DNA of 20,269 bases. Source: a virus. A program made the translations under genes and the position numbers. Below are positions 1,604 to 17,641 of this stretch, one piece after another. How positions within the stretch are numbered: the stretch's first letter is position 1; the number at the start of each line of letters is the position of its first letter. The stretch lies in the IMG/VR virus record IMGVR_UViG_3300028831_000166, positions 1-20,269 of that record. One strand, written 5' to 3'. Below the pieces are notes generated by a model. The model saw nothing but the letters and a program-made list of their open reading frames with translations, had not been told where the DNA came from and made no database searches.

Positions 1604-1755
1604 ACCTGCCCCAGATCGACGACTCCGATAGGGCAACCCTGGCCTTCATGGTCGGTTACCTGCTGATCCTTTCCGCGGCCTGGCTGATCGCCCCTGTGCT
1701 GGGTCTGCTGGCCCTGGGTCTGTCCCTGGCCGTGTACGGCTACCGGAGGCTGTGA
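1600..1755 (+). CDS. Small membrane protein, 51 aa, between terminase and portal
   Basis: GTG at 1600 overlaps the terminase stop by 4 bp (GTGA), and the TGA at 1753-1755 overlaps the portal ATG by one base. The protein begins MNLPQIDDSDRATL and is then almost entirely hydrophobic from about residue 14 to 48, ending GYRRL. This fits one long or, more likely, two short transmembrane helices with a Pro near the turn (residue 32) and positive residues at the C-terminus. No family is recognised. The tight coupling on both sides and the coherent hydrophobic profile support a real gene. A holin-like or membrane-anchoring role would be a guess. Confidence 0.7.
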   Translation: MNLPQIDDSDRATLAFMVGYLLILSAAWLIAPVLGLLALGLSLAVYGYRRL

Positions 1756-3428
1756 TGGGTGCCATCTCCAAGGCCCTCGGTCTCAAGACCGCCTCAGCCG
1801 GCCCCAACATCAGTTGGGACGGCACCTTCAGCGTCCAGCCGCTGTTCAACTCGTTCCTGGGCTGGGGAGGACGAAGCAACGCGGGGCCGATCGTGTCGGT
1901 CGACTCCTCGATGGGCCTGGCCACCCTGTACGCCTGCGTGCGGGTCCTCGCCGAATCGGTGGCGCAGATCCCGCTGATCCTCTACCACCGCCTGCCCGAC
2001 GGAGGGAGTCAGCAGGCCGAGGACCACCACTTGTACCCCATCTTCCACGACGCCCCCAACCCGGAGATGACCAGCTTCGTGTGGCGCGAGACGATCGTCA
2101 GCCACCTCTGCACCTGGGGCAACGCCTACTGCGAGATTGCCTTCGACCAGAGCGGACGGATGGAGCTGTGGCCGGTCAGCCCGGCTCGCATCCAGGTCAG
2201 CTTTGAGGGTGGGCGCAAGGTGTACGACTACCTCAAGCCCGACGGCAACAAGCTCCGCTTCCCCGACGGCAAGATCTTCCACATCCCCGGCATGAGCTCC
2301 AACGGGTTGGTAGGGATGAGCCCCATCTCCATCCACCGCGAGACGCTGGGTCTGTACCAGGGACTGCAGGACTTCGGGGCCTCGACCATGCGCAACATGG
2401 CCAGACCTTCGGTGGTGATGACCCATCCCAAGACCCTGTCCAAGGGCGCCATCGAACGCCTGGCGACGCAGATGGACGAGCTCAGAGGGTCGGGCAACGC
2501 GGGCAAGACCATCGTCATGGAGGAGGGCCTGACCCTGACCGAGGTTGGTATCCCGCCCAAGGACGCGCAGTACATGGAGGCGCGCCAGTTCCAGTCGCGC
2601 GAGGTGCAGCGCATGTTCCGCATGCAGCCTCACATGGTGCAGGACCTGGAGCACGCCACCTTCACCAACATCGAGCACCAGTCGCTCGACTTCGTGAACT
2701 TCACGCTCACTCCCTGGCTGTCAAGGATCGAGCAGCAGATCACGCTCGACTTCCTGTACGGCGAGCCGGACTACTACATCAAGTTCGCCAAGGAAGAGCT
2801 GCTGCTCGGGGATTCGGAGTCACGCGCCAAGGCGCTCAACATCCAGCACGACGCCGGGGTCCTCTCAGATAACGAGTGGCGCGCCATCGAGCACCGCAAC
2901 CCGAAGGTCACAGACAACTTCTGGCAGCCGTCGGGGGCCAACTACATCCTCAACCCCGTGGATACCCCTGGGGAGCAGACCCTGCCCGAGGACCAACCGA
3001 CCCTGACCGTGGTCAAGTCGGCCGGCATCCGCTGCCTCAACTGCAACCACAAACTGGCTGAGATGGCTACCGCCCCGTATCGCTTCACCTGCTCCAAGTG
3101 CAAGGCGGTGACCGAGGACACCACGGTCCCTGAGCCGGTCAAGTCCGCCGACCCGATGCTGGGCTTGACCGAGGCAGTCATTGCCTTGGCCAACCGAGAG
3201 CAGCCGACCCCGCAGATCACGGTCACCACCCCGGAGATCCACGCCGAGCTGCATGTTCCAGACATCCAGCTGCCACCTGCTGAGCCGGCCGAGGCCCCGG
3301 TGGTCAACGTCCATACCGACTCGTTCGTGGAAGCCATAGCTGATCTAAAGACGATGCTGGCCCAGCCTCGCAACAAGCGCATCCTGCGCGACCCCGACGG
3401 GCGGATCGTGGGAGTGGAGGACGCATGA
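1755..3428 (+). CDS. Portal protein (HK97-like) with C-terminal zinc ribbon
   Basis: The portal ring forms the capsid vertex through which DNA enters and to which the tail joins. Residues about 45-410 have the HK97-family portal pattern: an early LATLYACVRVLAESVAQIPL segment, PNPEMTSFVWRETIVSHLC at about 102-119, GLVGMSPI at 184-191, and a C-terminal clip/stem segment with REVQRMFRM near 282-290. The start is ATG at 1755, preceded by GGAGG at 1744-1748; a GTG one codon earlier is possible. The 557-aa length exceeds a plain portal by about 130 residues. The extension carries C427-x2-C430 and C446-x2-C449, a Com-like zinc ribbon, then a Pro-rich linker and a terminal KRILRDPDGRIVGVEDA of the kind portals often end with. 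The portal call is firm; the role of the ribbon is unknown. Confidence 0.93.
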   Translation: MGAISKALGLKTASAGPNISWDGTFSVQPLFNSFLGWGGRSNAGPIVSVDSSMGLATLYACVRVLAESVAQIPLILYHRLPDGGSQQAEDHHLYPIFHDAPNPEMTSFVWRETIVSHLCTWGNAYCEIAFDQSGRMELWPVSPARIQVSFEGGRKVYDYLKPDGNKLRFPDGKIFHIPGMSSNGLVGMSPISIHRETLGLYQGLQDFGASTMRNMARPSVVMTHPKTLSKGAIERLATQMDELRGSGNAGKTIVMEEGLTLTEVGIPPKDAQYMEARQFQSREVQRMFRMQPHMVQDLEHATFTNIEHQSLDFVNFTLTPWLSRIEQQITLDFLYGEPDYYIKFAKEELLLGDSESRAKALNIQHDAGVLSDNEWRAIEHRNPKVTDNFWQPSGANYILNPVDTPGEQTLPEDQPTLTVVKSAGIRCLNCNHKLAEMATAPYRFTCSKCKAVTEDTTVPEPVKSADPMLGLTEAVIALANREQPTPQITVTTPEIHAELHVPDIQLPPAEPAEAPVVNVHTDSFVEAIADLKTMLAQPRNKRILRDPDGRIVGVEDA

Positions 3429-3730
3429 CCACCATCCTTCAAGCCGAGCGGCTGTGGGTATGCCCCAACTGCAAGGTTCAGGACGTGACCCGCGAAGCGC
3501 GCCCCCACACCCGCTTCCACGCCTGCGCCGGGCTCCGCGGTCTGACCGCCCCTTTGGTGGAGGCGGGGGACCGGGTCAAGGTCACTGTCAGGGAGCGGGA
3601 GGACTACATCGGCGACGAGATCGTGACTTCGGTCGAGGGCCGTCCAATTATGTCCGTTCTCACCGAGCGCGAGGACGGGTCCAATGACGTGGTGGTGTTC
3701 GCCCCGGCGGCCCACGGAAAGGTGAGCTAA
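3425..3730 (+). CDS. Small Cys/His zinc-binding phage protein, 101 aa
   Basis: ATG at 3425 overlaps the portal stop (ATGA), with GGAGG at 3416-3420. The N-terminus has C13-x2-C16 followed by H28, H32 and C34 within a RPHTRFHAC segment, a plausible zinc site. The rest is a short beta-rich domain containing REREDYIGDE. I recognise this type as a conserved hypothetical protein of actinobacterial siphophages near the portal; its function is not known to me. It is the second protein in a row with a zinc-type Cys arrangement, after the portal C-terminus. Confidence 0.75.
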   Translation: MTTILQAERLWVCPNCKVQDVTREARPHTRFHACAGLRGLTAPLVEAGDRVKVTVREREDYIGDEIVTSVEGRPIMSVLTEREDGSNDVVVFAPAAHGKVS

Positions 3731-4009
3731 ATGGCAGACAAGAGCAGCGGAGCGGCCAGTGCATATAGCGCCATGGTCAAGACCCAGGACGGCCCTGTGC
3801 CGGCCGACGATCCATCGCACGCCATCAGGCGCGATGCGGCCAAGGACCTGATCAGTCGGATCAAGAAGCAGATCGCGCAGGCCGAAAAGGACCTGCCCGA
3901 AGCGAAGGATGGGGAGGAACGCAAGGCACTCAAGGCTCTGATCAAGAGCCATCAGGACTATCTAGCCCAGGCCGAAGCTGACCTGGCACAGCTCAAGAAA
4001 GGGAAGTAA
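3731..4009 (+). CDS. Hypothetical protein with coiled-coil C-terminus, 92 aa
   Basis: The ATG directly follows the TAA of the preceding gene, with a purine-rich GGAAAGG just upstream. Residues 1-30 are polar and look unstructured. Residues about 31-92 are rich in Ala, Lys, Glu and Leu with heptad-like spacing (ISRIKKQIAQAEKDL, LIKSHQDYLAQAEADL), so a helical hairpin or coiled coil is likely. No family is recognised. The position between portal and fibre-type genes suggests a virion or assembly role, which remains an inference. Confidence 0.75.
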   Translation: MADKSSGAASAYSAMVKTQDGPVPADDPSHAIRRDAAKDLISRIKKQIAQAEKDLPEAKDGEERKALKALIKSHQDYLAQAEADLAQLKKGK

Positions 4010-4012
4010 CTC

Positions 4013-4498
4013 GTGGCCTGGACCAACTCCAAGATCTTCTCGGCGTACATCACCGACGTACTCAACAACACGACCGCCATGGACCTCAACACCGACGCCC
4101 TGCTGGAGGCGGCGCTGTTCGACAACACCGTCACCCCCTCCCAGACGGTTGCCTCCGCATCCAGCGCTTACGGAACTGGCGTGTGGGCTGCGGGTGGCGT
4201 GGTGGATACCGGCTCATCGGCTCCTGCTGGCTGGCCTGCTCTCGGTCGCCCGCTGGCCTCGGTGACCTCGACCTTCGCCTCCAACGTCTACACCTTCGAT
4301 GCCGCAGACACGGTCAGCGCCAACGCGGTGACCACCCTGACCAACGCCTACGGCTGCCTGATCTACGACCACTCCATCGCAACCCCGGTGGCGGACCAGG
4401 GCATCTGCTTCAACTACTTCGGCGGGGCCAACACCGTCACCCTTGGCACGTTCACCATCGTATGGAACGCCTCGGGCATCTTCACGCTGACGCTGTGA
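4013..4498 (+). CDS. Conserved phage structural-type protein, 161 aa
   Basis: GTG at 4013 lies 3 bases after the preceding TAA, with a purine stretch (AAAGGGAAG) upstream. The protein starts MAWTNSKIFSAYITDVLNNT and ends WNASGIFTLTL. It is rich in Thr, Ala, Val and aromatic residues in alternating patterns expected of a beta-sandwich. I recognise the overall form (an N-terminal short helix, a VADQGICFNYFGG segment, and the WNASGIF end) from predicted virion or tail-associated proteins of actinophages, without a defined function. It may be a decoration or fibre-related protein. Confidence 0.75.
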   Translation: MAWTNSKIFSAYITDVLNNTTAMDLNTDALLEAALFDNTVTPSQTVASASSAYGTGVWAAGGVVDTGSSAPAGWPALGRPLASVTSTFASNVYTFDAADTVSANAVTTLTNAYGCLIYDHSIATPVADQGICFNYFGGANTVTLGTFTIVWNASGIFTLTL

Positions 4499-4818
4499 TG
4501 AAGCTCCTGATCGCGATCTCGCTCGCCATCGCGCTGTCAGCAGGAGGAACCACCATGGCAGCCAATCAGACCTCGCTGACTGCCTCGCCTACTACGGTGG
4601 CGGTGAACGGCACGGTAACGCTGACTTGGTCCGGCATTCCCAAGAGTCCTGGGGCTGTGATGCGGCTGATCGGCCCCTATTTCGATGCCATCGAGGTGCT
4701 GGACCTGTACACCAACACTTCATGGCAGTACCAGCCGCCGGTGGAGGGTTCGTACACAGCTGAGATTCAGCAGCACAACAGGGTCTTGGCCTTGGCCACG
4801 TTCACCGCCACGCCCTAG
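4498..4818 (+). CDS. Small Ig-like domain protein with signal-like leader
   Basis: ATG at 4498 overlaps the previous TGA by one base. From this start, residues 1-20 (MKLLIAISLAIALSAGGTTM) look like a Sec signal peptide: Lys, hydrophobic core, then small residues. The rest (TSLTASPTTVAVNGTVTLTW and onward) is a beta-sandwich of Ig-like type, ending VLALATFTATP. An internal in-frame ATG at 4555 has a near-perfect Shine-Dalgarno and would remove the leader, giving an 87-aa protein that starts MAANQTSL. The sequence alone cannot decide whether the leader is made. An open reading extends upstream to 4183 in the same frame but lies inside the preceding gene and is rejected. Confidence 0.7.
   Translation: MKLLIAISLAIALSAGGTTMAANQTSLTASPTTVAVNGTVTLTWSGIPKSPGAVMRLIGPYFDAIEVLDLYTNTSWQYQPPVEGSYTAEIQQHNRVLALATFTATP
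4542..4547 (+). promoter_or_regulatory. Strong internal Shine-Dalgarno for ATG at 4555
   Basis: AGGAGG lies 7 bases before the ATG at 4555, inside the reading frame that begins at 4498. It is the best ribosome binding site in this part of the window, whereas the ATG at 4498 has none. It either marks the true start or allows two forms of the protein, with and without the hydrophobic leader. Confidence 0.6.
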
Positions 4819-6363
4819 ATGGCCATCCTAGTCGGGGCCACCGCAGGCAATAACGGTGGTGGCGGTACCAGCCTGACCCTGACGGTCAGCAGTCCGACTG
4901 GCCACTGGACCGCAGGGGCGCCATTAGATGCGTCCAATAGCTTCTTTGGCGTGGCTTATGGCGGCGGATACTGGGTGGCCGTGGGCAATAACGGCAGGCT
5001 GTACTGGACTACTGATCCGACCGGGACTTGGACCCAGAATAATCAGGGAACGACGAACTTCGGTCGTCATGGGGTGGTCTACGGCAATGGCTACTGGGTG
5101 GTTGTCGGTGCCAGCGGGGTGCTCTACTACGCCACCGATCCCACCGGGGTATGGACTTCGAACACCCAAGGCAGCACGCAGCTGACCTCAGTTGCCTACG
5201 GCAATGGCTATTTTGTCGCGGTCGGGGCTAGTGGAACCCTCCTATATCACGCGACTGATCCGACCGGGACTTGGACCTCAAACGCGCAGGGTTCGGTCAC
5301 CTTCCGAGGCGCGGCCTATGTCAACGGCTACTGGGTGGCCGTCGGAGACAGTGGAACCCTGTGGTATCACCTTACCGACCCCACCGGCACTTGGACTCAG
5401 AATAATCAGGGCTCCACGGCTCTCTATGACCTGGACTACGACGGTACTCGTATCGTTATCGCGGGCCTCACTGGAACCATCCTCTATCGTTCCACGGACC
5501 CAACTGGAGCTTTCACCTCTAACCAGCAAGGCGGGGGAACGCCTCAGTTCACCGCCGTCGCTTACGGAAACGGTTACTGGATCGCGCCGCATGACACCTC
5601 GAATACTGGTGAGGTCTATTACGCCGCCGATCCGACGGGAACGTGGACCAGCAACGCGACCGGCTACACAGTCGCTGCGGCGGAAGACGTGATCTTCGCC
5701 GGGGGATACTGGCTGAGTGTGGGTGACACGGGCCAGATGAGCTACATGGGCAGCGTACTTGATAACGATGTGTTGCTGATGCAGGCCACTGTGGTTGGGG
5801 GAACCGGAACGACCATCACCGCGACCGGCTGGCAATTGCTCAACAGAACCAACAGCGGCACAGCGCTGGCGCAGGGACTCTATTGGCGACTGGCAGCCAG
5901 TGAGCCTGCGAGCTACGCGCTGACCATCACCAGCAACAAGGCATCGGGCGTAATCGCCATCATCCGCAACGCAGAAACAACCCAGCCGGTCAGCGCCCAG
6001 TATGCGGGACAGGCCAACGCGTCGAGCCTGACGGTGACCTATCCAACCCTCAGCACCTGGACCTCGACAGACGGGGTGGACTCGGTATTTGGTGGGATTG
6101 CTCAGGCTGACACTCCCGCCGCTCCCACGAATTACACCCAGACTGTCACCAGCCAATCCACTGGTGGTGGCGCGAGCAGCCGCACCACCTCTGAGCATGC
6201 GTTCCGCGCGTTGTCGGCGGTGACGACGGTAGGCCAAGTCACCGCGACTTGGACAGGAACCGCTGCGGTGAACATCGGTCACCACGTCTTCATCAAGACT
6301 GTTCCTGCTGCCGTCTCCCAAGTGCCCTACGTCAATCCAATGCCTTCCCTTCTAGCCCAGTGA
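4819..6363 (+). CDS. Beta-propeller-type phage protein (probable surface or receptor-binding protein)
   Basis: The 514-aa protein starts at ATG immediately after the upstream TAG, with no clear ribosome binding site, so coupling is likely. Residues about 41-310 contain seven units of about 40 aa. Each has an AYGNGYWVAVG-like strand pair, a SGTLxY strand and a DPTGTWTSN turn; DPTG occurs at 66, 107, 147, 187, 227 and 271. One unit per blade fits a seven-bladed propeller. Residues about 311-514 form a second beta-rich domain (VLLMQATVVGGTGTTITA, YWRLAASEPASYALTI) of a type seen in phage structural proteins. No signal peptide is seen. Carbohydrate or receptor binding is inferred from the fold and position; the exact role is unproven. 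Confidence 0.75.
   Translation: MAILVGATAGNNGGGGTSLTLTVSSPTGHWTAGAPLDASNSFFGVAYGGGYWVAVGNNGRLYWTTDPTGTWTQNNQGTTNFGRHGVVYGNGYWVVVGASGVLYYATDPTGVWTSNTQGSTQLTSVAYGNGYFVAVGASGTLLYHATDPTGTWTSNAQGSVTFRGAAYVNGYWVAVGDSGTLWYHLTDPTGTWTQNNQGSTALYDLDYDGTRIVIAGLTGTILYRSTDPTGAFTSNQQGGGTPQFTAVAYGNGYWIAPHDTSNTGEVYYAADPTGTWTSNATGYTVAAAEDVIFAGGYWLSVGDTGQMSYMGSVLDNDVLLMQATVVGGTGTTITATGWQLLNRTNSGTALAQGLYWRLAASEPASYALTITSNKASGVIAIIRNAETTQPVSAQYAGQANASSLTVTYPTLSTWTSTDGVDSVFGGIAQADTPAAPTNYTQTVTSQSTGGGASSRTTSEHAFRALSAVTTVGQVTATWTGTAAVNIGHHVFIKTVPAAVSQVPYVNPMPSLLAQ
4939..5748 (+). repeat. About seven coding repeats of ~120 bp (propeller blades)
   Basis: The DNA encodes tandem units of about 40 residues with the recurring core GNGYWVAVG followed by DPTGTW. 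Units 1-6 are clear and unit 7 is shortened (FAGGYWLSVGDTGQMSY). Codons differ between copies, so the similarity is mainly at protein level. This points to old duplication with conserved blade structure rather than recent expansion. Confidence 0.8.
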
Positions 6364-6370
6364 GGACACG

Positions 6371-6862
6371 ATGAGCCGGTACACGATCACCATGGCCAAC
6401 GCGACCGTCATCGCCAACGGCGAGCTCATCACGCTCCGGGCGGCGACCTCCTTCACCTCAAGAGCCTCGCTGCTATCTATCCTTCGCATGACTGTTAGTC
6501 AGCAGGGCACCTCTACCAGCCAGCAACTTGCCGTGCGTTGGGGCCTGAAAGCATCGGCGTTCGGGACGTTCACCGCTGCTACACCCTCTCCGGCCGTCCT
6601 CAACGCCGTTGCGTCGGCCATCACCGGCTCGACCACCAACGCGGCCTCGTCGGCTGGCACGAACGCCAGTGCAAACGGGGCGGGGACGCTGACGGTGATG
6701 GGCCAGGAAGGCTTCAACAATCTCAATGGCTGGCTGTGGGTACCGACCCCTGACGAGCAGGTCCTGGTGGGGCCTGACCTGACTTTCCTGTTACAACTCC
6801 AAGGCACACCGACCACTCTGACCGGTTGGAACGCCACCCTCTTCTTCGAGGAGCTCACCTAA
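6371..6862 (+). CDS. Conserved phage structural-type protein, 163 aa
   Basis: ATG at 6371 lies 7 bases after the upstream stop, with a GAGGA run (6362-6366) overlapping that stop. The protein is Thr/Ala/Ser-rich and mostly beta. Its C-terminal part contains NNLNGWLWVPTPDEQ and ends LTGWNATLFFEELT, a pattern I associate with small virion-related proteins of siphophages that accompany capsid or fibre genes. The middle, residues about 70-105, is a low-complexity Ala/Ser/Thr stretch. No enzymatic motif is seen. It is probably a decoration or fibre-associated protein. Confidence 0.7.
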   Translation: MSRYTITMANATVIANGELITLRAATSFTSRASLLSILRMTVSQQGTSTSQQLAVRWGLKASAFGTFTAATPSPAVLNAVASAITGSTTNAASSAGTNASANGAGTLTVMGQEGFNNLNGWLWVPTPDEQVLVGPDLTFLLQLQGTPTTLTGWNATLFFEELT

Positions 6863-6874
6863 GGGAGACGCCCC

Positions 6875-9595
6875 ATGCCGCAACGGGGCATCTTCCGGCA
6901 CCCGCCGCGACCGACCTTCCGACGCCCGACCCAGGTCATCTCTGGGGCGGCGGCCCAGAACGCCCTTGCTGAGGTCGCGACCGGCACAGGCGCTGCCAAT
7001 GACGCCGCTGTCTCCCTTAAGCCCAACTCGGCGCTGTCGAGCGGGACTGGCGCATCGAATAATGCGGCAGCCAACCTCCAGCCGAACGCTGGCAATAGCG
7101 CAGGCACCGGTGCAGCAGGAGGTGCCACCAGCAAGGTATCGCCTGTCGTTCAGGTTGCGACTGGGACGGGAACTTCCCAGGCTCCCCACGCCAACGTCCA
7201 GCCCAACGCCGGATCTGGGGCAGGAACCGGCCTCGCCAACAACGCCATTGCTTCTCTGGCTCCTAATGCTGGGAACGCTGCCGGGACCGGAGCGGCGAAC
7301 GCTCCAGCAGCCAGCATCGCGACAAATGCGGACAACGCTCCAGGGACGGGGACTGCCTATCAACCCGGAACCGGTCGTACACCCCAGGCTGCGACCGGAA
7401 CCGGAGCCGCTGGGAACGCCGCTGCCAGCATTTCAGTCAGTGCTGGCCTTGGAACCGGCACCGGACTCGCTAACGCCCCAGCGGACGTTGTAGCGGCCCC
7501 ACAGGGCACAGCTACAGGGTCGGGTGCGGCCAACCAGCCTTCGATAAGCCTCGCGGTCAATGCGGGCCTCGCTGCGGGCACAGGTGCGGCTTATCAGCCC
7601 GGAACGGGAAGAACGCCGCAGGTCGCCTCGGGTACAGGCGCGGCGTATGACGCCACCGTCACCACCGGCAAGAGCGCCTTCGCCGAAGTAGCCACCGGAA
7701 CCGGGGCTGCCTATGTCGCAAGCACCTCGATCGCCCCGGCTGGCGGCCTCGCCGCTGGGACAGGCTCGGCTGGAGCCGCTGCCCCGACCGTCGCTCCGAA
7801 CGCAGGGAGTGGAGCAGGGACCGGACAGGCTTATACACCGGGCACAGGACGGACTCCGGGAATCGCCACCGGTACTGGAGCGGCGGCCAACGCCTCGGTC
7901 AGCGTCCAGGCCAGCGCAGGGCTTGCAGCGGGAACCGGGGCTGCTCTAACCCCGACCTTCATCCTGGCTGGCTCCGAGGGGACGGCGGCCGGGACAGGCT
8001 CCTCTAACCAGCCGTCGGTCAGCATCGCTGCCAGTGCCGCGATCGCTACAGGAACGGGCGCGGCGTATCAACCCGGCACCGCTCGCACTCCAGGAGTCGC
8101 AGCCGGAACCGGGACTGCCTCGGATGCAGCGACCAGCATCGCCCCGACGGCAGGACTGGCGAGCGGAACCGGAGCCGCATCCAATCCTGCTGCCAGCCTC
8201 CAAGCCAGTGTCGGCAGCGCGTCTGGGGTCGGTGCTGCGAATCAGGCTGCGGCCAACGTCGCTCCGACTGCTGGCGCGGCGACTGGAACCGGAGCGGCCT
8301 ACATCCCCGGCACGGCTAGGACGCCCGGTGTCGCTACCGGGACAGGCCTCGCTAACAACGCGGCTGCGAGCGTGGCAGCCAGCGCCGGACTGGCCAGTGG
8401 ATCCGGACAGGCTTACGCCCCGGCCGACGTCATCGCGGCCATGGAGGGGGTGGCCAGCGGCTCAGGTGCAGCCAACGACGCAGCGGCCAATGTTCAGGTC
8501 AACGCGGGTCTGTCCACGGGTACGGGCGCCGCCTACATTCCCGGAACCGCTAGGACTGCAGGGATCGCCACTGGAACCGGCGTGGCTGCCGATGCGACCC
8601 CCTCGGTCTCGGTCAGCGCCGGAGTTGCATCAGGTACTGGGGCGGCTTACGGGGCGAACACCGTTGCCTCTGCCTCTGCGTCTGCGGCAACAGGAGCCGG
8701 AGCCGCATACAACCTCTCCGCCTCAGTCGCGGCCTCGATCCAGGTTGCAACGGGAACAGGAACAGCCTTCGATGCGGCTGGCATTCAGGCAGTCGATGCC
8801 CTTGCTCAACTGGCCTCTGGCAGTGGGCTGGCGTCCGACGCCACGACTTCGGTCGCTCCGGTCATCGAGGCTGCGCAAGGCAGCGGCCAGGCTTACAACC
8901 CGACCATCGCGGGTTCGGGGACGGTCAACGCCGGCCTCGCGTCCGGGACTGGACAGGCTTACGACCTCTCGGCTGCCATCGCTCCGGTTATCGAAGTTGC
9001 GAGCGGAACCGGATCCGCCCTCGACGCGACCGTCACCACTACCGCCGCGGGCGCCGCCAATGCTGAAGTTGCCACAGGCAGCGGAGAGGCCCTCGACACC
9101 TCCACCGCAATCGAGGTCAACGCCGAGCTTGCCTCTGGTTCTGGCCAGGCGTTCGGCTTCGGTGAAGACATCCAAGCCTCTGCCCAGGGCGCGAGTGGAA
9201 TTGGCGAAGCCTTCGGCCCGGCCCCATCCCTCCAAGTCTTGGCGGGGGGGGCCGCCGGTACCGGCTCGGCCCGGGATGCCACGGTCAGCACCGGAGCCGC
9301 CGCGACCAGCGCCCAGGCTGGGCTGGCCTCCGGTACGGGTACCGCCTACGACGCCACCATCAGTACCCCGGTCACTCTTGTCACCCACGGTGCGGACATC
9401 CTCGGCCGCAGGAGACCTCGCCGAGGCTATCGCGTCGACCAGTTCGGCTATCCCGAGGAGCCCGACTGGGTCACCCGTCCAAGGCTGGTTGCAGTTGAGG
9501 CCGAAGTTGCTCGAGGGGTGGGTGAGGCCTACGACGCGAGCATTGAGTGGAACGACGACGAGACCGCGATCCTGATGCTGCTGGACGTGGCTTGA
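6875..9595 (+). CDS. 906-aa Gly/Ala/Thr-rich repeat protein (probable fibre or surface protein)
   Basis: ATG at 6875 has GGGAG at 6863-6867. Residues 1-34 are Arg/Pro-rich. Residues 35 to about 837 consist of roughly 40 tandem units of 17-25 aa, each opening with an ATGTGAA-like motif (small residue-x-Gly-x-Gly-x-Ala). Six units carry AYxPGTxRTP and recur every fourth unit. The C-terminal 69 residues are non-repetitive: a basic GRRRPRRGYR, then DQFGYPEEPDW, one last degenerate GVGEAYDAS unit, and an acidic/hydrophobic end NDDETAILMLLDVA. Short regular Gly-x-Gly units suggest a beta-solenoid or trimeric fibre shaft. The exact family is not recognised. The large number of Thr and Ser makes it a possible target for the glycosyltransferases encoded at 13787-17035. 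Dense open frames on both strands here are by-products of composition. Confidence 0.8.
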   Translation: MPQRGIFRHPPRPTFRRPTQVISGAAAQNALAEVATGTGAANDAAVSLKPNSALSSGTGASNNAAANLQPNAGNSAGTGAAGGATSKVSPVVQVATGTGTSQAPHANVQPNAGSGAGTGLANNAIASLAPNAGNAAGTGAANAPAASIATNADNAPGTGTAYQPGTGRTPQAATGTGAAGNAAASISVSAGLGTGTGLANAPADVVAAPQGTATGSGAANQPSISLAVNAGLAAGTGAAYQPGTGRTPQVASGTGAAYDATVTTGKSAFAEVATGTGAAYVASTSIAPAGGLAAGTGSAGAAAPTVAPNAGSGAGTGQAYTPGTGRTPGIATGTGAAANASVSVQASAGLAAGTGAALTPTFILAGSEGTAAGTGSSNQPSVSIAASAAIATGTGAAYQPGTARTPGVAAGTGTASDAATSIAPTAGLASGTGAASNPAASLQASVGSASGVGAANQAAANVAPTAGAATGTGAAYIPGTARTPGVATGTGLANNAAASVAASAGLASGSGQAYAPADVIAAMEGVASGSGAANDAAANVQVNAGLSTGTGAAYIPGTARTAGIATGTGVAADATPSVSVSAGVASGTGAAYGANTVASASASAATGAGAAYNLSASVAASIQVATGTGTAFDAAGIQAVDALAQLASGSGLASDATTSVAPVIEAAQGSGQAYNPTIAGSGTVNAGLASGTGQAYDLSAAIAPVIEVASGTGSALDATVTTTAAGAANAEVATGSGEALDTSTAIEVNAELASGSGQAFGFGEDIQASAQGASGIGEAFGPAPSLQVLAGGAAGTGSARDATVSTGAAATSAQAGLASGTGTAYDATISTPVTLVTHGADILGRRRPRRGYRVDQFGYPEEPDWVTRPRLVAVEAEVARGVGEAYDASIEWNDDETAILMLLDVA
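6977..9385 (+). repeat. Hierarchical coding repeats: ~60-bp units inside 234-bp super-repeats
   Basis: About 40 units encode a [A/S/T]-x-G-x-G-x-A core. The Tyr codon of the AY(Q/I/T)PGT(G/A)RTP motif falls at 7358, 7592, 7832, 8066, 8300 and 8534. The spacings are 234, 240, 234, 234 and 234 bp (78 or 80 aa), so four short units make one super-repeat. Synonymous codons vary between copies. Units before 7290 and after about 8600 lack the RTP element and are less regular. Confidence 0.85.
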
Positions 9596-9604
9596 CGGTA
9601 AAAT

Positions 9605-9630
9605 AGGGGAGGCGTGTGACCGCCTCCCCT
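9605..9630. terminator. Perfect 10-bp hairpin after the fibre block
   Basis: AGGGGAGGCG (9605-9614) and CGCCTCCCCT (9621-9630) pair perfectly around the 6-nt loop TGTGAC, 10 bases after the stop of the repeat protein. No U-run follows on the plus strand. On the minus strand the stem is followed by TATTTT, so it looks more like a reverse-direction terminator or a transcript-stabilising or processing hairpin. It marks the boundary between the fibre block and the HNH gene. Confidence 0.55.
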
Positions 9631-9654
9631 CGCAACGACAGGAGTGAGCTGCCG

Positions 9655-10236
9655 ATGCCTTCTCAGACTACCGAAGTCCGCTGCCCAGAGTGCGCGAGGT
9701 TGCTCTTGGGCCTTTCTGATGACTTCGTTGGTGCTGTGTCGGCGCGCTGCCGTCATTGTCGGATCGACGGAAGTTATCCGAGAAGTGGTGACGTTCCAAC
9801 TATCCGACTTAACTGCCGGTGTGGTCGTTGGATCGCGACTGGTCGGGTTGAGAGAGGGAGCGTGAGGGCGCATTGCCGTCGCTGCCGTGCGCTCATGGCT
9901 ATAACAGCCTCGGCGACTCTCGCCTTCGAACAGGCCGTGCCCCGTCCTACAACAGAGCCTGACTTGGTGGCAGCCATAGAGGCTCGCTGGCTCGCCATGG
10001 GAATGGATCGGGCTCGGCGGAGCGCAGTGGCAGTCGGAATACGGTTTGAGGTGTTCCAACGTGACCACTTCCGGTGCCGATATTGCGGCGCCAGCCCTGA
10101 CGATGGGGCGGTTCTGGAAGCGGATCATGTCGTTCCTCTGTCTGTGGGTGGGGAGACCACATTGTCGAACCTTGTCACGGCGTGCTGGGACTGCAATCAC
10201 GGGAAAGGTGCAAGGAGGGTTGACTTCAGAACCTAG
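9655..10236 (+). CDS. HNH endonuclease with two N-terminal Com-like zinc ribbons
   Basis: The start is ATG at 9655 with AGGAG at 9640-9644; an upstream GTG at 9616 lies inside the hairpin and is less likely. The 193-aa protein has three parts. Residues 8-37 form a zinc ribbon (C10-x2-C13, C32-x2-C35). Residues 51-82 form a second one (C54-x-C56, C74-x2-C77). Both resemble the Com family, of which phage Mu Com, an mRNA-binding translational activator, is the known member. Residues about 130-190 are an HNH nuclease: CRYC at 141-144, ADHVVPLSVGG with H158, SNLV with N172, and CWDCNH with H182. A homing-type or packaging-associated nuclease is possible. Sampled lines have lower GC (about 53-60%) than neighbouring genes, suggesting later acquisition. 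It stands alone between hairpins, without an interrupted host gene. Confidence 0.85.
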   Translation: MPSQTTEVRCPECARLLLGLSDDFVGAVSARCRHCRIDGSYPRSGDVPTIRLNCRCGRWIATGRVERGSVRAHCRRCRALMAITASATLAFEQAVPRPTTEPDLVAAIEARWLAMGMDRARRSAVAVGIRFEVFQRDHFRCRYCGASPDDGAVLEADHVVPLSVGGETTLSNLVTACWDCNHGKGARRVDFRT

Positions 10237-12776: not shown

Positions 12777-13358
12777 ATGATCCTGACCGTCGACGAGCTC
12801 CGGGGGCATATCTCCTCGTCGCTCGACGATGACACCCTGCAGCGTCTGCTGGACGCTGCCGAGTACGACATCGTCGACTTCGCAGGTCCCCCCGGAGCGG
12901 TGACGGAGATCATCGATGGAGGCTATCGCCGGCTGACCCTCAACCGGCCGGCGATAGCCATCAACTCCATCGTCGAGACCATCGGTCTGACGCTGACCAC
13001 CCAGATCACGCTATCCCCGGACGACTATCGCCTGCGGGCCTACGGCTACGTCCTCGAGCGGCTCGGTACCGGAACCAACCCGCGCTGGTACTGGGGCCGG
13101 CTGGTGACCGTCGAGTACACCTACCTCGACGACGCCAAGCTGCGCGAGACGGTGCAGATCGACCTCATCAAGCTGGAGCTCACCTTCTCGGCCGGGGTGG
13201 CCGCGGAGCGTATCGGGGACTACTCGCAGTCCTTCCGAGTCTCCACCGCAGAAGGAAGCCAGCAGCAGATGCGGCAGGACATCCTGTCACGCCTGAATGC
13301 CGAGCCGGAGATGAGAGTGGTCGGTACTCCACTGCTGCCTTGGGATGTCGGTCAGTGA
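12777..13358 (+). CDS. Head-tail connector (gp6-like adaptor)
   Basis: The 193-aa protein follows the capsid gene by 8 bases. It begins with a helical segment (TVDELRGHISSSLDDDTLQRLLDAAEYDIVDFAG), typical of gp6-like adaptors that bind under the portal. A beta-rich centre follows (RRLTLNRPAIAINSIVETIG, LVTVEYTYLDD) and then a helical C-terminal half (IDLIKLELTFSAGVAAERIG). Gene order (capsid, then connector) supports the call. The expected next partner, head closure, is displaced by 3.9 kb to 17252. Confidence 0.85.
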   Translation: MILTVDELRGHISSSLDDDTLQRLLDAAEYDIVDFAGPPGAVTEIIDGGYRRLTLNRPAIAINSIVETIGLTLTTQITLSPDDYRLRAYGYVLERLGTGTNPRWYWGRLVTVEYTYLDDAKLRETVQIDLIKLELTFSAGVAAERIGDYSQSFRVSTAEGSQQQMRQDILSRLNAEPEMRVVGTPLLPWDVGQ

Positions 13359-13361
13359 GCG

Positions 13362-13790
13362 ATGAACCGTGTCGTCCTGACCCTTGGTGCCTTTGACCTC
13401 TTCCACGTCGGTCACCTAGAACTCCTGCAGGCCTCGCGTGAGCTAGCAGGAGATGGTCGAGTCGTAGTCGGGCTCAACACCGACCGCTTCATCACCGACT
13501 ACAAGGGTCGCTCTCCGATCCAGCCCTACGTCCAGAGAGAAGCCATGCTGCGCGCCTGCCGGCTGGTGGACTTGGTAGTGGCGAATATCGGGGGAGCGGA
13601 CTCCAAGCCCTGCATCGAGATGGTCCATCCTGACTTGTTGACGATCGGGGATGATTGGTATGAGCGCGACTACCTCGGGCAGCTGGGAGTGACGCAGGCA
13701 TGGCTGGACGAACGGCGGCTGCGGATCGCCTATATCCCCAGGACGACAGGAGAGAGCAGCACCCGTCTGCGCGCTTTGCTGGCGTCGTGA
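13362..13790 (+). CDS. Cytidylyltransferase family protein (TagD-like)
   Basis: The 142-aa protein has the hallmarks of the small nucleotidyltransferase family that makes CDP-glycerol or similar CDP-activated alcohols. It shows the HxGH motif in FDLFHVGHLELL (H15, H18), the GDDWY segment at 96-100, and RTTGESST at 127-134, matching the RTxGISTT signature. Length is close to glycerol-3-phosphate cytidylyltransferase (about 130 aa). The substrate cannot be fixed from the sequence; glycerol-3-phosphate is favoured because the TagB/F-like gene at 16037 would use CDP-glycerol. It starts 3 bases after the connector gene and overlaps the next gene (GTGA), so it is expressed in the late operon. Confidence 0.85.
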   Translation: MNRVVLTLGAFDLFHVGHLELLQASRELAGDGRVVVGLNTDRFITDYKGRSPIQPYVQREAMLRACRLVDLVVANIGGADSKPCIEMVHPDLLTIGDDWYERDYLGQLGVTQAWLDERRLRIAYIPRTTGESSTRLRALLAS

Positions 13791-14467
13791 GCCAGGTCAT
13801 CATCCTGTGCCCCAGCCGGGGCAGGCCCTCGCGTGCGCTGGCCATGGCCTCATCGGCGGAGGAGATGGCCGAGGGACGCATCGAGGTCCGCATCCTGGTC
13901 GATGAGGACGACCCGTCTCTGCCGGAGTACAGGGCCTTGGGCATGCACGTCTTCGAGATGCCCAAGGACCTCGGTTTCTCGGGAACCCTCAACTATGTCG
14001 CCAAGAGCCTGTGGCACGACCCAACTCACATCTTGGGAGCGTTCGGGGACGACGTCATCTTCCGCACGCCGGGCTGGGACAAGCAGATCGAAGAGGCCCT
14101 AAAGACCCCGGGCATCGCCTACGGTGACGACCTGATCCACGGCGAGAAGCACCCCAGCGCGGTGTTCATGTCTGCCTCGATCGCCAAGGCTCTGGGCTGG
14201 CTGGCCCTCCCTGCCTCCAAGCACCAATGGGTCGACGATGGCTGGAAGCGCCTGGGTCAGGCGACCGGCACGCTGCGTTTCGTGCCCATCATCGTGGAGC
14301 ACATGCATCCTGCGGTGGGCAAGGCCGAGATGGACGACGGCTATCGACGGGTGTTCGACGGCGAGAACGCCAAGCGTGACTACGAGGGCTTCGAGGGTTG
14401 GGTCAAAGACGGGCTGCACGCCGACACGCTCAAGGTGCAGATGCTGCTCAAGGGCAGAGTGGAGTGA
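13787..14467 (+). CDS. Glycosyltransferase, GT-A/family-2-like
   Basis: The start is GTG at 13787, overlapping the stop of the TagD-like gene; an open frame to 13700 lies inside that gene and is rejected. The 226-aa protein opens with VIILCPSRGRPSRA, a nucleotide-binding beta strand and loop typical of GT-A folds. It has LVDEDDPSLPEY at 38-49, GFSGTLNYVAK at 63-73 and a metal-binding-like GDDVIF at 87-92, followed by TPGWD. EHMH at 171-174 may be a further metal or catalytic site. Donor and acceptor are unknown. It is coupled by GTGA to the next glycosyltransferase. Confidence 0.8.
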   Translation: MSQVIILCPSRGRPSRALAMASSAEEMAEGRIEVRILVDEDDPSLPEYRALGMHVFEMPKDLGFSGTLNYVAKSLWHDPTHILGAFGDDVIFRTPGWDKQIEEALKTPGIAYGDDLIHGEKHPSAVFMSASIAKALGWLALPASKHQWVDDGWKRLGQATGTLRFVPIIVEHMHPAVGKAEMDDGYRRVFDGENAKRDYEGFEGWVKDGLHADTLKVQMLLKGRVE

Positions 14468-16047
14468 AGACCGTCTTTCTCGTGCCGCGGCGGCCCGACA
14501 ACGGACCGCGAGACAGATCATGGGAATACTGTCGGGCTCGGTGGGAGCGCTATTTCCCTGAAGTGGCTGTCGTGGAGGGCCACCACATTGAGGGACCCTT
14601 CAGCCGCTCAAAGGCCATCAACTTAGCTGCGCGGCTGGCCGATGAGGGTGGGCGTTGGGACTTCGCCATCGTCATCGACGCGGACGTGATGCTTAAGGTT
14701 TCTCAGGTTCGCCAAGCCATGAAGACGGCGAAGGCCACCGGCAAGGTCACTTGGGCCCATCGTCGCTGGCGGGGCATCACCAAAGACTGGACGGAACGGA
14801 TCGTCGCTGATCAGCACGAATGCGGCCCAGAGATTGACCACGACGACGTGGACGTGTGGGTCGAGAGGACAACGCCGATCTCATGGTCCTGCTGCTTTGT
14901 CGTACCCCGAGCGGTCTTCGATGATCTCGGGGGATTCGATGAGCGCTTCGTGGGCTGGGGATTTGAGGATCTCGCGTGGCAGGCTTCAGTGGTCGGGTTG
15001 TACGGTCACGAGCGTATCGAAGGCGACGTCTACCACTTCTGGCACCCGCGCTCGGAGGAGCGGATCATCCAGGGCCAGCCCGGATCCACCGCCTCGCGGG
15101 CCTATGTCCTGAATGCCAGATTGGGACGAAGGTACATGCTCGCTCTCAGAAGGGATCACGGGCTGCACGACCGTCCCGGCCTGCCCGCTTCCGAGCAGGA
15201 GCGCCAGCAGGACATCGCCAACCTGAAGCGCGACGACGCCAAGCTGGCCGCTCAGAATCAGGGAATGGGCCTGCCTGATTGGTCTAAGTGGTGGCCGACG
15301 CTCGAGGAGCTGAGAGAAGGGGCCAAAGGCCATCTGGAACCCCATGTCACCTTAGTGGTCATGTCGGGGGGCCTTCCGTCAACGTGGCAGCAGCGCCGGG
15401 CCTACCTGGAGAAGGCCGTTGCCTCGCTGAAAGAGAACGTGCAGGGGCCGATCGCCAAGCGGGTGATCTACTCGACCTGGCCTGACGAATCCATCCGCGC
15501 CTGGCTGCGCAAGGCGTTCCCCGACTTCTACATCGTGGGACCTGAGCCCCACGAGATCGTGGCCTGGCCGGAGGCCGAGCGTCACGCACGCTCCATGTCT
15601 GCCCTGTTCAAGTACCTGTCTCGCAAGGCGCTGACCGAGTACGTCTTCCTGGCCGAGGACGACTTCGTCTACACGCACAAGGTGGAACTCCGCCCCCTGG
15701 TAGAGGCGCTGGACACCCATCCCCACCTCGTCCAGATCGCGCTCCTGCGCCAGCCCGTCCATCCGAGAGAGATTGAGAAAGGCGGCGTGCTGGGCTGGCC
15801 GCGCGAGTCATTTACCTCCGAGCACCTCAACGGCTTCCACTGGCTCGAGCATCGCAACTTCTGGACGAACAACCCGAGCCTGTTCAGGCAGTCACTGACC
15901 TCTCAGGGCTGGCCGGTACAGCCTTCATCCGAACGCCTGTTCGGGAACACGCTGCTGCGCGACGTCAATCTGCGCTTCGGGATCTGGGGCGACGGGGAGG
16001 CTTGGGTAGAGCACATCGGGGAAGTCAGGTCGTCGAGTGCCTATTGA
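14464..16047 (+). CDS. Two-domain glycosyltransferase (527 aa)
   Basis: The start is GTG at 14464, overlapping the previous stop (GTGA). The N-terminal domain, about residues 1-235, is a GT-A enzyme with DAD at 72-74 and GGFDERFVGWGFEDLAW at 156-172. That motif is the galactosyl/GalNAc-transferase C-terminal signature (GT7/GT27-like), including the acidic pair E168/D169. Residues about 240-290 form a charged linker. The second domain, about 293-520, starts LEPHVTLVVMSGGLPSTW and carries FLAEDDF at 395-401, a DxD-like site. Two catalytic domains in one chain could add two sugars in sequence, as in polymerising transferases. Donor, acceptor and processivity are unknown. Confidence 0.82.
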   Translation: MKTVFLVPRRPDNGPRDRSWEYCRARWERYFPEVAVVEGHHIEGPFSRSKAINLAARLADEGGRWDFAIVIDADVMLKVSQVRQAMKTAKATGKVTWAHRRWRGITKDWTERIVADQHECGPEIDHDDVDVWVERTTPISWSCCFVVPRAVFDDLGGFDERFVGWGFEDLAWQASVVGLYGHERIEGDVYHFWHPRSEERIIQGQPGSTASRAYVLNARLGRRYMLALRRDHGLHDRPGLPASEQERQQDIANLKRDDAKLAAQNQGMGLPDWSKWWPTLEELREGAKGHLEPHVTLVVMSGGLPSTWQQRRAYLEKAVASLKENVQGPIAKRVIYSTWPDESIRAWLRKAFPDFYIVGPEPHEIVAWPEAERHARSMSALFKYLSRKALTEYVFLAEDDFVYTHKVELRPLVEALDTHPHLVQIALLRQPVHPREIEKGGVLGWPRESFTSEHLNGFHWLEHRNFWTNNPSLFRQSLTSQGWPVQPSSERLFGNTLLRDVNLRFGIWGDGEAWVEHIGEVRSSSAY

Positions 16048-17035
16048 CGCCATCGCGGGGGAGCCGCAGTTCCTCGACCATCTGGCTCCGGTCTGGAAGG
16101 CGCTGCCACCCGCAGTGCGAGGTCGCTTTCTGGTCGCGTTCGAGATGGCCGAGCAGGCACAGCGGCTTGAGATCGACGCCATCCTCAAGCAGTTCACGGT
16201 CGGCACCGAGGCCGGCTCCAAGGGCGAGCCGCGCGGACCGAAGTGTCTGGTCGCCAGCTACGGTGACGTGAAGAAGGCACGCCGACTGGGATACGGTGAC
16301 TTCGCGCGCTTTGAGCATGGCATCGGGCAGGCCTACTCCAACACGCATCCCTCCTACGCTGGCGGGCGGGATGCCTCGGACCATTCCTTGTTCCTGATGC
16401 CGAACGAGTATTCGGCCAACCTGTGGTGGACTGCCTACCCCAGCGCCCGGGTCGAGGTCGTCGGATCTCCTCGCCTCGACTCTCTACCTCAGCGTGAAGG
16501 CGAACCCGGACGGGTGGTGGCCTTCTCGCTGCACTGGCGCTGCAACGTGGCGCCCGAGACCTACCCGGCGGGCGAGTTCGCGTCAGCCCTGCCTGCCCTC
16601 TCTAGGAGATTCACGGTGCTGGGGCACGGTCACCCACGAGGAATCGGGGACCTGATGCCCTACTACCAACGGCTAGGCATCGAGTTGGTGCCCGACTTCG
16701 AGGAGATCTGCCGCAGGGCGGACGTGTTCGTGGCGGACAACTCGAGCGCGATGTACGAGTTCGCGGCGACCGGTAGACCTGTGGTCGCGCTGAACAGTCA
16801 GAACTGGCGGCGGCACGTCCATCATGGCCTGAGATTCTGGGACGCGGTGCCCGGAGAGCAGGTGGACGACCCGGCGGATCTGATCGATGCCGTGGAGCGC
16901 GCCTTGGGCGACCCAGACTGGCTGAGAGCGGTCAGAGAGCACGCGCTGGGGATTGTGTACCCCTACCGTTCCGGGGCGGCACAGCGGGCGGCACAGAGGC
17001 TCGCTACTTGGGCGCAGGTTGCAGTGGCAGCCTGA
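16037..17035 (+). CDS. CDP-glycerol glycerophosphotransferase-like protein (TagB/TagF-like)
   Basis: GTG at 16037 overlaps the preceding gene by 11 bp. The 332-aa protein looks like the catalytic half of the family that transfers glycerol phosphate from CDP-glycerol: RFEHGIGQAY (H94), VVGSPRLDSL at 141-150, TVLGHGHPRG at 193-202 (H197, H199), and the donor-site pattern VADNSSAMYEFAATGRPVVALN at 232-253. Members also use other donors, so the substrate is inferred from the TagD-like gene three positions upstream. No membrane helix is visible, so it probably acts in the cytoplasm on a soluble acceptor. Its 3' end overlaps the convergent RHH gene (17004-17035). Confidence 0.75.
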   Translation: MPIDAIAGEPQFLDHLAPVWKALPPAVRGRFLVAFEMAEQAQRLEIDAILKQFTVGTEAGSKGEPRGPKCLVASYGDVKKARRLGYGDFARFEHGIGQAYSNTHPSYAGGRDASDHSLFLMPNEYSANLWWTAYPSARVEVVGSPRLDSLPQREGEPGRVVAFSLHWRCNVAPETYPAGEFASALPALSRRFTVLGHGHPRGIGDLMPYYQRLGIELVPDFEEICRRADVFVADNSSAMYEFAATGRPVVALNSQNWRRHVHHGLRFWDAVPGEQVDDPADLIDAVERALGDPDWLRAVREHALGIVYPYRSGAAQRAAQRLATWAQVAVAA

Positions 17036-17251: not shown

Positions 17252-17641
17252 GTGAGTTTTTCTGATCTGCTGATCCATGATCTGCTGATCAAGAGCCCCG
17301 ACCCCGCCATCTCACCCGACACCACTGGCCAGCTCCACTACGACTCGACCGGTCAGCCGGTGGGCGACACCACCGACAGCGTGGACGAGGACTGGAACTC
17401 AGCAGACTTCGCCAAGGGCCTGGTGCAGGAGCTGACCGCCAAGTGGCCGATGGGACCCGGAGCGGGGCCTGAGCTGGTGGATACCCGCATCTTCCTGCTG
17501 CCCGACACGGTTATTCACGAGCTCGACAAGATCAAGCGCACCGACATCGACCCTGAGCAGGTGTACCAGGCCGTGTTCGTCAGGGACGCAGCCGGCCGAG
17601 GTCACCACATCGAGGTCCAGGCGCGGAGGATCCCACTGTGA
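17252..17641 (+). CDS. Probable head-closure / head-tail joining protein, 129 aa
   Basis: GTG at 17252. The N-terminal part contains a repeated DLLI (SDLLIHDLLIK), produced by a 13-bp direct repeat at 17263-17275 and 17278-17290. The middle is acidic and Thr/Ser-rich (TTDSVDEDWNSADF), and the C-terminal half is beta-rich (TRIFLLPDTVIHELDKI, QVYQAVFVRD). By size and place before the gp10-like gene, it fits the stopper or head-closure protein that seals the connector. The assignment rests mainly on synteny. Confidence 0.6.
   Translation: MSFSDLLIHDLLIKSPDPAISPDTTGQLHYDSTGQPVGDTTDSVDEDWNSADFAKGLVQELTAKWPMGPGAGPELVDTRIFLLPDTVIHELDKIKRTDIDPEQVYQAVFVRDAAGRGHHIEVQARRIPL

Follow-up and report, generated by a model that had tools for sequence, protein, structure and literature searches.

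A cassette of four genes, here named NT (cytidylyltransferase-like), GT (single-domain glycosyltransferase), dGT (two-domain glycosyltransferase) and GPT (TagB/F-superfamily transferase), was found in the late operon of the virus record IMGVR_UViG_3300028831_000166 (hereafter the window, which is the whole 20,269-bp IMG/VR contig). From comparative analysis, we give slightly better than even chances to the reading that the cassette is a late-expressed module decorating the phage's own virion proteins with a glycan and a cytidine diphosphate (CDP)-activated, phosphodiester-linked cap. The observations behind this reading are the gene content, folds and motifs of the cassette, its association with virion genes in different phage groups, and a cellular relative linked to flagellin.

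Protein families of the cassette

NT matched the CTP_transf_like family (PF01467) above the Pfam cut-off (1.1e-13; 51.9 bits versus 21), as well as phrog_7878 (2e-33). Among solved structures in the PDB, it matched ethanolamine-phosphate cytidylyltransferase (2e-17) and glycerol-3-phosphate cytidylyltransferase (8e-16). It exhibits HVGH at position 15, YKG at 47, GDDW at 96 and RTTGESS at 127, and thus carries the TagD-type motifs HxGH, GDDW (as in 1COZ) and RTxGxSS. A previous sequence-only reading of the window had described NT as TagD-like, a description that suits the family and the motifs; however, NT scored only 67 bits with the TagD glycerol-3-phosphate cytidylyltransferase equivalog (TIGR01518; cut-off 165.4), tied with the HldE adenylyltransferase domain (TIGR02199; 68.1 bits, below the cut-off of 181.5). 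We propose, from its sequence, that NT makes a CDP-activated small phospho-compound.

GPT scored 42 bits (E 7.7e-11) with the Glyphos_transf superfamily profile PF04464, above the gathering cut-off of 22.1, with the best stretch in its C-terminal half. It reached only 13 bits with the TarF glycerol-phosphate transferase (NF041712; cut-off 550), so that the earlier "TagB/TagF-like" label holds at the level of the superfamily. The AlphaFold model (predicted local distance difference test, pLDDT, of 94) is a confident GT-B fold; its best structural matches were UDP-GlcNAc 2-epimerases, and matches in a library of viral structures were of a generic GT-B kind. Six residues, H94, G95, H166, P200, D234 and S237, were invariant among 55 sequences, and, going by the aligned ranges of the model, H94 is a plausible candidate counterpart of the mutated H444 of TagF. 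Sequence profiles prefer PF04464 for GPT, and the fold by itself does not decide its identity; we propose that GPT acts as a CDP-X:glycan phospho-X transferase.

GT matched phrog_14945 (4e-40), with no useful match in Pfam (best 0.17). Its AlphaFold model (pLDDT 85) shows a GT-A fold close to WrtF (Z 15.9) and GalNAc-T2 (ppGalNAc-T2; Z 15.6), and a GDD motif is present at position 87. The dGT protein matched PF00535 (4.9e-7); its N-terminal half matched phrog_1721 (2e-22) and its C-terminal half phrog_3047 (6e-8), and the two halves match separate, adjacent genes of mycobacteriophage Nappy. The family matches of the cassette proteins are well beyond chance.

Distribution of GPT and its linkage to virion genes

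Among 50,697 deposited phage records, GPT was found in one (Rctr41k), flanked by an SU10-type adaptor on one side and the next connector genes on the other; the head genes of this phage are otherwise unrelated to those of the window. A search of viral contigs with the single GPT sequence found none, while a two-row alignment retrieved 10 viral and 0 genome loci, and a ten-row alignment 182 IMG/VR stretches and 8 genome loci. These eight comprised two Bacillaceae islands (L129 and L131), one stretch of a Coriobacteriia metagenome-assembled genome (L130), which has TerL, portal and major capsid protein (MCP) genes and is probably phage, and five weak partial matches. Plasmids yielded no match, and the sole strong match in 398 Bacillota genomes was the already known Robertmurraya copy. 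The GPT family is scarcely recognised, yet present in many uncultivated phages.

Neighbourhoods were described for 80 of the 182 matching IMG/VR stretches. Genes were called by a codon-score script, clustered, and labelled using the window genes and library scans of representatives. Because many loci were near copies, they were dereplicated at 80% shared 4-mers (55 sequences, alignment A3). Of the 87 GPT loci, 46 had flanks of 4 kb or more in both directions; virion genes were recognised in 42 of these, all co-directional, and on both sides in 39. After dereplication, the corresponding numbers were 26 and 24 out of 30 loci, again all co-directional, and the fractions were alike at cut-offs of 2, 6 and 8 kb. 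Glycosyltransferase companions were observed in 42 of the 55 dereplicated loci, and methyltransferase companions in 19 of the 55 (34 of the 87 relatives overall). The slot occupied by GPT (after the portal, MCP, adaptor or stopper gene) varies but remains within the head-neck-tail virion block. On a quick 38-row tree with modest branch support, at least 9 slot changes were counted versus a shuffled mean of 19.7; the slot is thus clustered by descent, though unfixed. The repeated occurrence of GPT within late virion operons, in many different phages, suggests that the particle is the target, as the sequence-only reading had proposed.

The order NT-GT-dGT-GPT recurs in L045/L046, with 46-62% identity. 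In L049, GPT is fused to a PF03407 glycosyltransferase domain, and two companion glycosyltransferases of L047 had no match in deposited phages. NT was also found apart from GPT. In the phage group L002-L022, it lies between the MCP and adaptor genes and is preceded by genes for a PF13692 glycosyltransferase and a GT-A-like protein. Adjacent homologues of NT and GT are present in Streptomyces and Arthrobacter phages (Karp gp76-77, Evy gp35-36, Mimi gp177-178), in the stretches read away from the head-tail genes, and none of these three genomes had a PF04464 match. Other viruses have been reported to carry NT-like genes as auxiliary metabolic genes.

Flagellin-linked relative and comparison with known systems

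The Robertmurraya island (L129) starts with csrA and a flagellin gene (PF00669, 1e-49), followed by genes for PseB-like and Maf-like (PF01973) proteins, an FkbM methyltransferase, GT8, GPT, GT2, LuxE/LuxC and NeuB. Its GPT (47 bits) is the only PF04464 match of that genome; the protein (9980-11425 of L129) also has a C-terminal PglD_N-like match. L131 has the downstream genes of L129, but its stretch is without flagellin and its GPT is split over two gene calls, so that the flagellin linkage holds for L129 only.

The cassette most resembles the type A flagellin modification genes CD0240-CD0244 of Clostridioides difficile, where a glycosyltransferase (CD0240), a nucleotidyltransferase (CD0242) and a TagF-like transferase (CD0244) are encoded together, next to a gene whose product is a surface protein that self-assembles, as here. 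Addition of phospho-N-methylthreonine to the GlcNAc of FliC depends on CD0244 and gives GlcNAc-phosphodiester-N-methylthreonine, with CDP-threonine made by CD0242 as the proposed donor (PMC10714395). The TagF-like member resembles UDP-GlcNAc 2-epimerase in both systems, and the C. difficile set includes a methyltransferase, as do many GPT relatives. The phage genes lie in a virion operon rather than a flagellar one, and encode more glycosyltransferase domains.

In Pseudomonas aeruginosa, PA1091 of the b-type flagellin cluster PA1088-PA1091 combines a glycosyltransferase with a phosphotransferase (PMC11833859). The fusion in L049 likewise joins GPT to a glycosyltransferase domain, although PA1091 is bacterial and its fusion partner and order differ. 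Mycobacteriophage Corndog carries a methyltransferase and glycosyltransferases (gp35-gp38) between portal and protease, for which capsid modification was suggested (PMC4351075). The likeness to Corndog is one of gene position and suggested role; the account of that phage describes neither an NT gene nor a PF04464 gene. Finally, the cassette shares superfamilies and several motifs with the wall teichoic acid synthesis proteins TagD, TagB and TagF, but falls below the curated cut-offs and has no wall-polymer context. "Flagellin type A-like" therefore describes the gene set better than the "teichoic-acid-like" coat of the sequence-only reading.

Genomic context of the cassette

Table 1. Cassette genes, flanking connector genes and candidate acceptor in the window.
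Feature	Position	Strand	Description or evidence
NT	13362..13790	+	ATG start; 142 aa; cytidylyltransferase-like protein
GT	13787..14467	+	GTG start; 226 aa; single-domain GT-A glycosyltransferase
dGT	14464..16047	+	GTG start; 527 aa; two-domain glycosyltransferase
GPT	16037..17035	+	GTG start; 332 aa; GT-B fold, TagB/F-superfamily (PF04464) transferase
Head-tail adaptor, directly 5' of NT	12777..13358	+	phrog_442, 1.3e-6
Stopper-like connector, 3' of GPT	17252..17641	+	phrog_1059, E 0.23; placed by synteny
Candidate acceptor, 906-aa Ala/Gly/Thr/Ser repeat protein	6875..9595	+	Proposed from composition and repeat spacing

All four reading frames are open across 13362-17035 and overlap by 4, 4 and 11 bp, as the sequence-only reading had reported (Table 1). 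Its description of the cassette as fused into the operon applies to these internal overlaps; at the borders, a gap of 3 nt follows the adaptor, and the next plus-strand gene lies 216 bp beyond the end of GPT, leaving the 3' junction unfused. This interval holds a minus-strand gene (17195-17004), which encodes a 63-aa ribbon-helix-helix protein (NikA/CopG-like; PF21983, 1.3e-8), overlaps the 3' end of GPT by 32 bp and was not found in the scans of other GPT loci. Ahead of the adaptor and cassette lie the TerL, portal, protease-like and MCP genes. The stopper-like gene had a weak profile match and was placed by synteny, since neck1, terminator, major tail protein and tail assembly chaperone genes follow it; proteins of the same cluster adjoin adaptors in other GPT loci. 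G+C content was uniform over the cassette and its flanks, no promoter or terminator signals exceeded shuffles, and the window had no DNA-level match in deposited phages. An HNH endonuclease gene was observed at 9616-10236, between the genes for the repeat protein and the protease-like protein, and cysteine pairs resembling zinc ribbons were seen by eye in the C-terminal part of the portal (1752-3428) and in the next small open reading frame (ORF; 3425-3730).

The relatives L073/L149, L150 and L081/L151 showed MCP identities of 56-59%. In L081/L151 (MCP 59%, TerL 66% identical to the window), GPT and dGT lie between portal and protease and the adaptor and stopper genes are adjacent, which supports the earlier view that the cassette splits normally adjacent connector genes. 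L073 has the order adaptor-dGT-GPT-stopper, without NT or GT, and the L150 stretch ends after dGT. The window GPT is nearer to those of L047 and L055 than to those of L073 or L081, which suggests that GPT has been exchanged independently of the capsid genes. In L149, we also observed a 170-aa ORF between dGT and GPT (13708-14220, minus strand) and, in the portal-protease interval (7508-8254) of this relative lacking the window-type NT, a CTP_transf_3 cytidylyltransferase (PF02348).

The 906-aa protein contains 11% Thr and 9% Ser, with a GTGAA-like repeat about every 20 residues; no DNA tandem repeats were detected at 4000-10000, though the protein repeat is clear. Close relatives encode collagen-like proteins in the equivalent portal-protease interval, and in L151 a collagen-like gene immediately follows dGT. 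We infer that the repeat protein of the window and these collagen-like proteins are candidate acceptors. Collagen-like runs were present in 11 of 90 GPT stretches, some from the same contig, and in 0 of 39 NT stretches; as many of the NT stretches are shorter, the difference is no more than suggestive. Between portal and protease, the window also encodes a 514-aa protein with repeated TDPTGTWTSN-like units (4819-6363), probably a surface or propeller-like virion protein.

Discussion

In the mechanism that we propose, GT and dGT would assemble a short O-glycan on Ser/Thr residues of a virion protein that is abundant or exposed at the surface. NT would activate a small phospho-compound with cytidine triphosphate (CTP), and GPT would move this compound from CDP to the glycan, yielding a phosphodiester-linked cap; the whole scheme would be like C. 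difficile type A flagellin modification. The acceptor, the sugar, the donor and the order of steps are those that we infer. The activated compound could be glycerol-3-phosphate, but also a phospho-amino acid, phosphoethanolamine or a phosphonate. With NT below the TagD cut-off and GPT below that of TarF, glycerophosphate is just one of several possible CDP-activated groups, and glycerol is no better supported than the others. The CDP-glycerol or related CDP-alcohol of the sequence-only reading is supported only as one such option. Decoration of virion proteins in some form, with or without a phosphodiester, appears quite likely, whereas the cap is favoured by a little.

Several points weigh against the proposed scheme. 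NT was found in just 10 of the 87 GPT loci (7 of the 55 dereplicated), so that in most of them the CDP compound would have to come from the host, or another donor would have to be used; nor is the absence of NT accounted for by alternative nucleotidyltransferases, as PF02348 and PF00483 were each found in only 1 of 42 contigs. The CDP-threonine steps of C. difficile are themselves a proposed model, CD0242 belongs to a different nucleotidyltransferase family from NT, and neither a methyltransferase (CD0243) nor a ThrH-like phosphotransferase (CD0241) was recognised among the window proteins scanned, the record being a 20-kb fragment. Moreover, IMG/VR contigs are chosen partly by hallmark virion genes, which inflates virion-gene linkage, and most virion-gene labels derive from profiles that were themselves made from the loci studied; when the queries were restricted to window proteins, a virion-gene match was obtained in only 18 of 54 dereplicated loci. 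Finally, the GPT fold fits UDP-GlcNAc 2-epimerases (Z 22.1) no worse than TagF (Z 20.2).

This last point, together with the rarity of NT and its equal scores with the HldE and TagD models, would also suit virion-protein glycosylation without a phosphodiester, in which GPT would transfer a sugar or epimerise a nucleotide sugar and NT would make a nucleotide-activated sugar, in an HldE-like way. We consider this doubtful, since GPT is recognised by PF04464 and not by the Epimerase_2 profile (PF02350) up to E 1, and the motifs and PDB matches of NT favour CTP-dependent enzymes. CD0244 is likewise epimerase-like, and that function was rejected by its authors on mutant data (PMC10714395).

Two further explanations place the target elsewhere. 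The TagB/F and TagD superfamilies are chiefly known from wall teichoic acid synthesis, and phage glycosyltransferases that alter host surface polymers are known. The cassette could accordingly alter wall glycopolymers late in infection, keeping progeny off debris or excluding other phages, as the sequence-only reading had offered as its alternative. This appears improbable, because no membrane-span-like segment was detected in NT, GT, dGT or GPT, the genes lie in a late virion operon, and the cellular relative is linked to flagellin rather than placed in a teichoic acid locus. Decoration of modified bases in phage DNA seems more improbable still. It draws on phage SP-15, where a gene annotated as CDP-glycerol glycerophosphotransferase lies in a cluster with a proposed DNA-modification role, and on Karp, where the NT-GT pair lies near DNA-metabolism genes; however, the position of GPT among virion genes is consistent, and thymidylate synthase was found in 4 and Thy1 in 0 of the 27 longer GPT contigs, which are fragments.

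Glycosylated virions are documented for a few actinophages, and the literature searched contained no CDP-dependent phosphotransferase step on virion proteins. The sequence-only reading had considered that a glycerophosphate step would be unusual; the SP-15 annotation, with its proposed role in DNA modification, is an earlier report of such a gene in a phage. Whether the GPT family is a widespread phage-borne group of CDP-dependent phosphotransferases capping virion-protein glycans appears to us evenly balanced; the product would be a charged phosphoglycan coat of a kind so far described on bacterial flagellins. The presence of this family in 182 viral stretches, against a single deposited phage record, suggests an overlooked common surface chemistry of environmental phages. 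Through the link to flagellin decoration, established flagellin glycopeptide methods should be directly applicable to virions.

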